DNA of 64,000 bases, from assembly GCF_900169565.1 (NCBI RefSeq), contig NZ_LT828648.1:2578501-2642500 (forward strand), read 5' to 3'. Under the pieces are notes generated by a model that was not told the DNA's origin, searched no databases, and saw only the letters and a list, made by a program, of their open reading frames with translations. Shown here one piece after another: positions 53,087-62,483 of this stretch. Made by a program: the position numbers and the translations under genes. The first letter of the stretch is position 1; the number at the start of each line of letters is the position of its first letter. This DNA is from Nitrospira japonica (GTDB lineage: Bacteria > Nitrospirota > Nitrospiria > Nitrospirales > Nitrospiraceae).

Positions 53087-53533
53087 ATGATGATCACTGT
53101 TGAGTCAACTCCTGAACGTCCGGTCCCCGGGGTCACGATTCTGGCGGTTCTCGTTTTGGCACTGGTAATCCCGTCGGCCCTGTTTGCAGGAAGTCCCACA
53201 TCGATGCTCATTCGGCAAGACCTGCCGGACCTACCGGGAAAGGTGGCGACGGTGTTGACCGTCCAGTACGCACCGGGAACGGCATCCGATGCGCATCAAC
53301 ATCCAGGTTCAGTGTTCGCATATGTCCTGGAGGGGGCGGTGGTGAGTCAATTGGAAGGAGAAAAGCCGGTGACGTACACAGCCGGGCAAAGCTGGTATGA
53401 ACCTCCGGGGCAAGCTCACGTGGTGCTGAGGAATGCCAGCCGGGAGGAGACGGCCAAGATTCTCGTCTTTATTCTGACGCAGGAGGGGGAGGAGCTGAAA
53501 TCACCGGTGAAATTGTCCGATGTCGGGAAATAG
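53087..53533 (+). CDS. Exported or membrane-anchored cupin-domain protein
   Basis: 148 residues. A membrane helix (ILAVLVLALVIPSALFAG) precedes a single cupin domain: YAPGTASDAHQHPGSVFAYVLEGAV carries the first metal motif (H-x-H-x-E-like), and WYEPPGQAHVVLRNAS the second. Such proteins bind a metal and often act as sensors or isomerases; the reaction here is unknown. It ends just inside the upstream frame of the DedA gene and is probably co-transcribed with it. Confidence 0.86.
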   Translation: MMITVESTPERPVPGVTILAVLVLALVIPSALFAGSPTSMLIRQDLPDLPGKVATVLTVQYAPGTASDAHQHPGSVFAYVLEGAVVSQLEGEKPVTYTAGQSWYEPPGQAHVVLRNASREETAKILVFILTQEGEELKSPVKLSDVGK

Positions 53534-54545: not shown

Positions 54546-55706
54546 TCACGCGTCAGCGCATCGATGGAGCTCTCGAACGAATCGCTCCGTTGCGGCCGCG
54601 AGACCGAGAGGGTCGGCTTGAATCCGGCTGCCGAGAATAAATACGACGTCCCGGCCGTAGAACGTCGTGAATTCAGCGATGTCCGGCGTGCCGATCCGTC
54701 CGGCCGCCGTCGGAGCCATGGGACGCACGTGTTCCCAGGCTGTCCGGCACGCCCGCGCCAACGCTGCACAGTCGTCTCTCGTCATCGCATAGCCGGTACG
54801 ATAACCGGGATAGATGGACAGATCCGCGCCGGCGAGACGAGGGAGCTGACCATAGAGGGCTGCAGGGGCGATTCCGTGATCCCGATGGATCGTGTAACTG
54901 CCCAGCAGCGCGGGGTGGCTCGCGATGGGCAGCGCAAGCGTCTCATCCTCAGCCAGGAAGCGGAGCGCGTCGAATCCGGTCAGCCCCGGCGCCACCAGCA
55001 GCCCTCCGGCGCCCCGTTTTTTGGCAAGCGCGGCGCGCGTTCTCATGACGTCGAGAGGACCGCTGACGTGGACCAAATAGGGACACGGCCGGCCTCGTTT
55101 CGCCGCGGCGGTGGACACCGCATCGGCGCATCGTGCGACGCGCTCGTCGAACGGACAGAACGGTTGATCGACCAGACCCTGGTCGTCTTTGATCAAGTCT
55201 GCGCCGCCCAGCACGAATTCCGTTGCCAGATCCGCCAACTCCCGCGGTGAGCGACCGAGCGGTTTCAGCACGGCGCAGACCAGTGAACGGTCCCGAATCC
55301 CGGTCAGTTCCCTGAGGCCCGCCATACCGAATCGTGGGCCTCGCCATTGCGGCAGGATGGAATCGGGAAGCTCCCACGAGATCAGCCGCACGCCGGGGCG
55401 CAGGCTGCTTGTGCCGAACAAGAGATTTAGCAGATCAGTGAGATGCCGTCCGATCAGGTCGGCGGCGTAACTGATCCGGACTTCATAGCCGCCGGTCGGT
55501 CGAGGTTGGAAGTCTTCGAGCCGGCCCACGATCCGATGCCGTAATTCAGCCGTCAGGATTTCGTCACTGGCTTCGACGGTCTGATCCAGGCAAATCAGTT
55601 CGGCCGTGGCCCGAGCCTCGGTCTCCGAACCGCCGGCGTGATACAGGGCGGTGACGCGTGCATTTGGAGACGGTGGTTTCGATTCAGCGGAGAGTCGTAC
55701 GCTCAT
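54546..55706 (-). CDS. RuBisCO-like protein (form IV)
   Basis: 386 residues, a RuBisCO large-chain fold lacking several catalytic residues. The N-terminal ferredoxin-like domain (YEVRISYAADLIGRHLTDLLNLLFG, quoted in part as DLLNLLFGTSSL) is followed by the TIM barrel. K148 matches the first active-site lysine in AVLKPLGRSP, but the second lysine of KPK is absent. The activator site is GGADLIKDDQG: Lys173 and Asp175 kept, the metal Glu replaced by Gln176. The loop that holds phosphate in RuBisCO (GGG) reads GSR at 359-361. Carboxylase activity is therefore unlikely. Form IV proteins act in methionine salvage and other sugar-phosphate isomerisations. It is divergent from 55824-56471. Confidence 0.9.
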   Translation of the reverse strand: MSVRLSAESKPPSPNARVTALYHAGGSETEARATAELICLDQTVEASDEILTAELRHRIVGRLEDFQPRPTGGYEVRISYAADLIGRHLTDLLNLLFGTSSLRPGVRLISWELPDSILPQWRGPRFGMAGLRELTGIRDRSLVCAVLKPLGRSPRELADLATEFVLGGADLIKDDQGLVDQPFCPFDERVARCADAVSTAAAKRGRPCPYLVHVSGPLDVMRTRAALAKKRGAGGLLVAPGLTGFDALRFLAEDETLALPIASHPALLGSYTIHRDHGIAPAALYGQLPRLAGADLSIYPGYRTGYAMTRDDCAALARACRTAWEHVRPMAPTAAGRIGTPDIAEFTTFYGRDVVFILGSRIQADPLGLAAATERFVRELHRCADA

Positions 55707-61089: not shown

Positions 61090-61671
61090 TCATTTCTTGG
61101 GAGGAAAGTTCGACAGCACGTCTCGAAGGATTATTCGGATCCGTTCGTCCCGCTCCTGGGAACTCAAACTCGGGTCGACCGTGCCGGCCGCCGTTCCCCG
61201 CCACGCGAGTTTCTTCGATGAGGCGTCGATAATATCCACCAGCAGCGTGCCTGCTGCATAGGATGGTGCCTCAGGCTCGGCCTTCGGCTTCCCGCTCGGG
61301 TTTCTGGTGTCGACCGAATGGACGAAGGGTTTGCCCGCCATGCCGTCCGAAAAATACTGCTGCGACTGATCCGCGGGGCCTTCCTTCACTTGAATATAGT
61401 AGGCGACAAGAAAATCCGGGCGGCCGGCGGTGGAGGCCGCATAGCCCTTCAGGCCGAGTTGCGCGGCAATCGCCGTGCGAACCCGGATGTCGGTGCTCGA
61501 ACTGTCCACGCGGCGGTCGCCGGTCTTCTCCTGTTGGTCCCGCATCCACTCGTAGGTCCGATACGAGTGGAAATCCACGGAGCGGTCATAGTCGTACCCG
61601 ACCTTGTAGGATGCGCACCCCGATAGCGACCATATGATCAGACAATAGTGAAGAAAATTCCTTCGAGCCAC
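61090..61671 (-). CDS. DUF4136 lipoprotein
   Basis: 193 residues. A signal peptide ends in a lipobox (SLSGC). The DUF4136 domain follows: YKVGYDYDRSVDFHSYRTYEW, VRTAIAAQLGLKGY and LAWRGTAAGTVDP near the end. These lipoproteins are common in Bacteroidetes and Proteobacteria, with no assigned biochemistry. It pairs with the paralogue at 61687-62286, 15 bases upstream, and the two probably form one transcript. Confidence 0.9.
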   Translation of the reverse strand: MARRNFLHYCLIIWSLSGCASYKVGYDYDRSVDFHSYRTYEWMRDQQEKTGDRRVDSSSTDIRVRTAIAAQLGLKGYAASTAGRPDFLVAYYIQVKEGPADQSQQYFSDGMAGKPFVHSVDTRNPSGKPKAEPEAPSYAAGTLLVDIIDASSKKLAWRGTAAGTVDPSLSSQERDERIRIILRDVLSNFPPKK

Positions 61672-61686: not shown

Positions 61687-62286
61687 TTAGGGTGGAAAGT
61701 GATCGAACATGGCTTTGACCACGCGGGCGATCCGCTCATCCCGCTCCCTCGCCGTCAATGCCGGATCAATCTCGGCTGACGCGGTACCTTGCCAGACCAA
61801 CTTTTGCGTTGCTCCGTCGACGATGTCGACCAGGAGCGCTCCGTCTTTGTAGGGATGAACGTCGCTGACGGTGGTATAGAGGCCGGATGCCCGGTCGCCG
61901 ATATAGCGTTGAGTCGATGCCCCCTTCATCATGTCCGTTACGGCCGCCTGATACGACACGTAAAAATCCGGCCGCCCGGCCGCCGGGTTGGTATAACCCT
62001 TCTGCCGCAGCTGCCCGTCGACGGCGGCGCGAATACGGGCATCGACCAAGTCATTGTCGATCCGTTTGTCTCCCGCCGGGCTGCGGGAATCCGGCATCCA
62101 TTCGTAGGTTCGGTAGGCGGTGAAATCGGCGCCGCGATCGTAGTCATAGCCCACCTTCGGTGACGCGCAGGCGGACACGAGCGCGGCCAGCAGTCCTACG
62201 CATACGGCTGTAATCCGCAATACGAGGCGATTGCCGCGTGAACTGCGCTCATGTCTCTTTAATGTTGAATGGTTACCATGATTCAT
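61687..62286 (-). CDS. DUF4136 lipoprotein (paralogue)
   Basis: About 199 residues from ATG 62286; starts up to 62388 are open. The lipobox is VSACAS. The domain matches the neighbour at 61090-61671: PKVGYDYDRGADFTAYRTYEWM, IRAAVDGQLRQKGYTNPAAGRPDF, LVWQGTASAEIDP (quoted separately). Tandem duplication is evident. Both end with a similar RDERI-RIV motif and a Phe-Pro terminus. Function unknown; an outer-membrane-associated periplasmic protein. Confidence 0.88.
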   Translation of the reverse strand: MNHGNHSTLKRHERSSRGNRLVLRITAVCVGLLAALVSACASPKVGYDYDRGADFTAYRTYEWMPDSRSPAGDKRIDNDLVDARIRAAVDGQLRQKGYTNPAAGRPDFYVSYQAAVTDMMKGASTQRYIGDRASGLYTTVSDVHPYKDGALLVDIVDGATQKLVWQGTASAEIDPALTARERDERIARVVKAMFDHFPP

Positions 62287-62483
62287 CTCTGAGGGGTGAT
62301 GTCGGAGCAATATCATGCCGTATTCAAACATGCGGATATACCTGGCGGCGCTGGCCATGTGTGTGTCCTCACTCATTGCGCGCTTCATAGCGGCGCGTAG
62401 CCGGAAGATGTCTCGTCACGACACGGCCCCGTGAGCCTGATGCCGTAGAATTCTTGGACTCAGCCGTTTCGTCGGGCATGTTC

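Follow-up and report, generated by a model that had tools for sequence, protein, structure and literature searches.

The window analysed here is a stretch of 64,000 nucleotides from Nitrospira japonica (contig NZ_LT828648.1, positions 2,578,501 to 2,642,500). It carries an intact gene for a RuBisCO-like protein (RLP), complete with its stop codon, that is solitary, flanked by a DUF7002 gene on one side and a VTT-domain gene on the other. Equivalences between its residues and canonical RuBisCO positions were taken from an alignment with other RuBisCO-family sequences of the same phylum, which, together with a comparison of 110 members of the protein's clade, is the basis of the features listed below other than the gene itself.

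54546..55706, minus strand: RLP gene, 386 amino acids, Gln-type Nitrospiraceae subclade of DeepYkr-like RLPs (open reading frame, homology, alignment, structure match, tree)
55410..55412, minus strand: T99, N123 position; Asn in 71 of 71 His-type relatives, Thr, Met or Ile in the Gln-type
55257..55265, minus strand: K148-P149-L150, the KPK motif (canonical K175-P-K177); first Lys kept, second replaced by Leu
55179..55190, minus strand: K173-D174-D175-Q176, metal site; K173 corresponds to K201, D175 to D203, and Q176 lies at E204
54915..54917, minus strand: H264, H294 position, conserved throughout; the next residue, P265, lies at R295
54792..54794, minus strand: G305, loop 6 K334 position; Arg of GGRF in 70 of 71 His-type sequences (one gap), never basic in the Gln-type
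54696..54698, minus strand: R337, G381 position in a phosphate loop; Arg in 37 of 37 Gln-type sequences, Gly in 70 of 71 His-type (one gap)
54624..54632, minus strand: G359-S360-R361, the 403-405 phosphate loop; Ser at G404 invariant in the Gln-type, third residue variable

Elsewhere in the window, two adjacent genes (61090-61671 and 61687-62388) encode similar proteins that fall into one cluster and look like paralogous lipoproteins.

The protein is a form IV RLP, which has the RuBisCO fold and has lost canonical carboxylase residues. It is matched by the Pfam RuBisCO_large profile (E 9.5e-20), and its best solved relative is an RLP of Rhodopseudomonas palustris, 3qfw (E 4e-65), on which its confidently predicted structure (mean pLDDT 93.4) superposes with a Z score of 47.4 and an rmsd of 1.4 Å over 350 residues at 39% identity. 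The NCBIfam MtnW models reach 188 of 409 and 141 of 514 bits, far below cut-off. Pairwise dN/dS values between near relatives (0.18-0.23) show purifying selection on the gene and, therefore, that the protein is being kept. Subtype names follow PMC5893883, which describes two RLPs in R. palustris, RLP1 (DeepYkr) and RLP2 (Photo); since another structure, 2qyg, is titled rlp2, 3qfw is taken to be RLP1.

The sequence-only reading of this gene had pointed out that K173 and D175 are kept, that the third metal ligand is Gln176, that the second Lys of KPK is lost (KPL) and that the GGG phosphate loop has become GSR. All of this is confirmed by the alignment, which adds R337 at G381, G305 at K334, T99 at N123 and P265 at R295. 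Relative to RuBisCO forms I-III, E204, K177, R295 and K334 are thus replaced by Q176, L150, P265 and G305, while the carbamylated-Lys and Asp positions of the metal site are retained. The changes are not due to chance, since Q176, R337, S360 and L150 are invariant in 37 distinct Nitrospira-type sequences, the gene is under purifying selection and the fold is confident. The same reading had proposed an enolase-type reaction on a substrate with a different or absent phosphate. An enolase-type reaction fits the retention of the K175, K201, D203 and H294 equivalents beside metal and phosphate sites that are both non-canonical. Absence of the phosphate is possible as far as the aligned residues indicate; the phosphate side has lost one Arg (loop 6) but gained R337, so the site may retain a positive charge.

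Phylogenetic placement was based on a careful maximum-likelihood tree of 52 sequences and on a wider quick tree. The query, its relatives and 3qfw form one clade (100/99), separate from MtnW, form III RuBisCO and the other forms found in Nitrospirota, with the R. palustris sequence on a long branch in the maximum-likelihood tree. The Nitrospira Gln-type sequences are monophyletic (100/100) and have a single origin on the tree, at the end of a long stem (0.55 in the careful tree, 0.46-0.55 over both trees). Their sister group is made up of two sequences from Nitrospiraceae in which the ligand position is His or Ser (support of 92/91 for the pair and 96/82 for the union). These two loci, L014 and L016 (genomes G015 and G016), have intact phosphate loops, L014 also retaining a split transketolase, and are useful intermediates for tracing the change of the active site. 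As to whether the same changes occur inside a well-studied subtype, a question left by the sequence-only reading, the protein does fall inside the DeepYkr-type clade, but within a subclade whose additional changes are absent from the studied members.

A full-length RLP homologue is present in 15 of the 37 searched genomes of the window's family, and a fragment in one more. In the scan of named genomes, homologues also turned up in the genus Nitrospira (N. moscoviensis, N. defluvii and numerous MAGs) and, more widely, in Chloroflexota, Bacillota, Chromatiaceae, Thiotrichaceae and others; no account of an RLP from N. moscoviensis was found in the open-access literature. One Gln-type RLP with a Nitrospira-like gene order (L104) comes from a record labelled Candidatus Parvibacillus calidus, Saprospiraceae (CP058702.1), probably because the assembly is mislabelled or mixed, or because the gene was transferred. 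At another locus (L034, G107:C1:900257-901129), in a one-contig Nitrospirota genome, the matched stretch of a RuBisCO-type gene contains an in-frame TGA stop.

Comparison across 110 distinct clade members separates what was inherited from what is specific to Nitrospira. All 110 have the same residue at each of the Lys175, Lys201, Asp203 and His294 positions, and the E204 position is occupied by His in 71, Gln in 37 and Ser in two. The second Lys of KPK is replaced by Met or Leu in nearly all clade members outside the Nitrospira type. The lack of Glu at the third ligand and of the second KPK Lys is therefore wholly or partly inherited from the parent clade, and the earlier statement that known form IV types usually vary at other positions does not hold for the DeepYkr-like parent clade, which already has His at the former position and Met or Leu at the latter. 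In every one of the 37 Gln-type sequences, G381 is replaced by Arg and G404 by Ser, N123 has given way to Thr, Met or Ile, and the K334 position is not basic. None of the 71 His-type sequences shows any of these changes: N123 is Asn throughout, and K334 and G381 are occupied by Arg and Gly except in one partial sequence, which has a gap at both. The Nitrospira-specific component is a concerted remodelling at five positions: His has become Gln, the Arg of loop 6 and the Asn at N123 have disappeared, and G381R and G404S have been acquired. These represent one event on one branch, so finding them together does not count as independent statistical support for compensation.

The gene neighborhoods of the parent clade are informative of its function. 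A split transketolase gene (one or both halves) adjoins the RLP in 37 of 54 His-type loci, and mtnA and the methylthioribose kinase gene mtnK are also present in some, as in C. ljungdahlii, where the order is mtnK-mtnA-TktN-TktC-RLP; the same order is annotated on rhizobial plasmids. A cupin gene occurs in four His-type loci, that of L131 matching Rru_A2000 and being followed by a gene for O-acetylhomoserine sulfhydrylase. These neighbors tie the parent clade to the catabolism of 5-methylthioribulose-1-phosphate. Operons combining a His-type RLP with the split transketolase, often together with mtnK and mtnA or with sugar ABC transporter genes, were observed in Clostridia, Spirochaetota, Chloroflexota and on rhizobial plasmids (L108, L107, L090, L172, L173), and no description of them was found in the open-access literature; a thiamine enzyme replacing the cupin points to another route for breaking down 1-methylthioxylulose-5-phosphate. 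The operon partners of the parent clade have been lost from the Gln-type loci, with transketolase, MtnA/MtnK or cupin genes beside the RLP in none of 38. The split transketolase is absent from 36 of the 37 searched genomes, only G015 being positive, and the window's genome contains only ordinary full-length relatives (35-36% identity).

Two candidate partners were rejected. In about 19 Nitrospira loci the RLP is followed by a B12-binding radical SAM gene; 56 of 61 genomes, with or without an RLP, have a match at E 1e-30, and in the window's genome its close homologue lies nowhere near the RLP. The product of the cupin gene at 53087-53533, about 1 kb from the RLP, belongs to Cupin_2, has a hydrophobic N-terminus and gives no alignment with the shunt cupin.

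The pathway genes were searched family by family in the window's genome, which is a single contig, 99.96% complete. That no methionine-salvage genes lie near the RLP, as had been remarked before, is true locally; in the same complete genome, MtnA is encoded at G000:C1:3432269-3433258 and MtnP at 176966-177682, both above the curated cut-offs. The complete genome encodes no Aldolase_II proteins, so neither MtnB nor the MTRu-1P aldolase, and contains no match to ARD/MtnD or, at E 0.001 with the Rru_A2000-matching cupin as the query, to the cupin of the MTA-isoprenoid shunt. MtnP and MtnA can take MTA to 5-methylthioribulose-1-phosphate, and the absence from this genome of the known next enzymes that were searched for marks a metabolic gap in Nitrospira. 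Since MtnP and MtnA are found in nearly all Nitrospiraceae, with or without an RLP, they are not RLP-specific partners. One genome of the same genus without an RLP (G003) has adjacent genes for a class II aldolase and ARD, and in G007 the RLP, MtnB and ARD occur together. In G001, G002, G004, G010 and other Nitrospiraceae, MtnP and MtnA are encoded but Aldolase_II (MtnB/Ald2), MtnD and an RLP are all lacking, which leaves the fate of 5-methylthioribulose-1-phosphate in these genomes unaccounted for.

The view we tentatively favor, at somewhat less than an even chance, is that the protein catalyzes a metal-dependent enolisation or 1,3-isomerisation of a 5-substituted ribulose-1-phosphate, possibly with a shifted substrate preference. 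Its Nitrospiraceae-specific branch has a single origin within the DeepYkr-type RLPs, and on this view the protein is a catalytically built enzyme, the core chemistry of the superfamily probably being retained. In such a mechanism, the metal that polarises the ketose-phosphate would be held by D175 and a carbamylated K173, the acid being replaced by Q176 or by water, and K148 would serve as the proton-transfer base; reprotonation of the enediol elsewhere would complete a 1,3-isomerisation as in RLP1 of R. rubrum and R. palustris, with R337 standing in for the lost loop-6 Arg at the phosphate. The most likely substrate would be a 5-substituted ribulose-1-phosphate made by the MtnP and MtnA of this genome, either 5-methylthioribulose-1-phosphate from MTA or 5-deoxyribulose-1-phosphate from 5'-deoxyadenosine; the latter would presumably be converted directly to 1-deoxyxylulose-5-phosphate, with no need for a cupin. 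The nesting with 3qfw, the invariant catalytic positions, the 1,3-isomerase activity of RLP1, the neighbors in the parent clade, the presence of MtnP and MtnA, the lack in this genome of any other known consumer of their product among those searched for (no Aldolase_II, no ARD) and a dN/dS of about 0.2 support this assignment. Against it, MtnP and MtnA are not specific partners, G007 combines the RLP with MtnB and ARD, and a changed function would account equally well for five concerted changes on one branch and for the disappearance of all operon partners. Without the shunt cupin, moreover, no known enzyme would take a methylthio product further. The DeepYkr signature consists of K-D-D-H, the GGRF loop 6, GG loops and Asn at N123, and the protein has K-D-D-Q, no loop-6 Arg, GR and GS loops and Thr; as both the signature and the cupin were looked for without success, we do not assign it to the DeepYkr 1,3-isomerases.

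A changed function is the leading rival. It is conceivable, although we would not quite wager on it, that this is a Nitrospira-specific enzyme whose new substrate or reaction came with a single concerted rebuilding of the metal and phosphate sites, for instance the above conversion of 5-deoxyribulose-1-phosphate or a reaction on a ligand with an acid group held by Arg337. A stricter version, close to the idea of the sequence-only reading but extended to the whole Nitrospira branch, seems less probable yet deserves consideration: the fold and enolisation would be kept, and the phosphate side rebuilt (G381R, G404S, loop-6 Arg, N123) for a different substrate, such as one bearing a carboxylate or a differently placed phosphate. 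The clustering of the changes at the phosphate loops, their strict co-occurrence in the Gln-type, the long stem and the contrasting neighborhoods of the two types speak for this version; however, an Arg lost and an Arg gained can retain a phosphate, no new conserved partner gene indicates another pathway, and the ancestral substrate is still supplied by MtnP and MtnA. A non-catalytic or regulatory protein with the RuBisCO fold is unlikely: the variable third ligand (His, Ser, Gln), the replaced phosphate glycines and the lack of a conserved operon partner would agree with it, but the invariance of K148, K173, D175 and H264 in 110 sequences and the purifying selection do not. Identity with MtnW, the 2,3-diketo-5-methylthiopentyl-1-phosphate enolase of Bacillus-type methionine salvage, is very improbable despite the subthreshold NCBIfam matches, given that MtnW lies outside the clade and keeps Glu at the ligand position (KDDE), and that the genome has no MtnB to make this substrate and no MtnD to use the product. 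A CO2-fixing RuBisCO, for which the Pfam match could be invoked, is practically out of the question, as the equivalents of E204, K177, R295, K334 and G381 are missing and form III is separate in the tree.

Among the known systems, MtnW (2oek, 2zvi) resembles the window RLP in fold, in the catalytic Lys pair and in HP replacing H-R; it differs in its placement and KDDE motif, and the window's genome lacks the partner enzymes of its pathway. The His-type operon RLPs of C. ljungdahlii, Pararhizobium and Rhizobium rosettiformans belong to the same clade (about 38-40% identity), whereas the Gln-type genes are solitary and their signature differs at five positions. A third is the DeepYkr-type RLP1: the enzymes of R. 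palustris and R. rubrum are 5-methylthioribulose-1-phosphate 1,3-isomerases that shift the carbonyl of this substrate to yield 1-methylthioxylulose-5-phosphate, with a kcat of 1.3 per s for the R. palustris enzyme (PMC5893883). Taken as RLP1, 3qfw shares with the window RLP the clade, the fold, the catalytic Lys, Lys, Asp and His and a KP-x-G motif without the second Lys; unlike it, 3qfw has the His ligand, Asn at N123, the loop-6 Arg and intact GG phosphate loops, and the cupin of the RLP1 pathway is missing from the window's genome. The window RLP represents a Nitrospiraceae-specific branch of the DeepYkr type, descended from enzymes that salvage a sulfur-bearing by-product of methionine. 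RLPs are a test case for how one fold acquires new chemistry, and this branch offers a clean natural experiment, with a parent clade of known reaction, one stem, five linked changes and a lost operon in widespread nitrite-oxidising bacteria.
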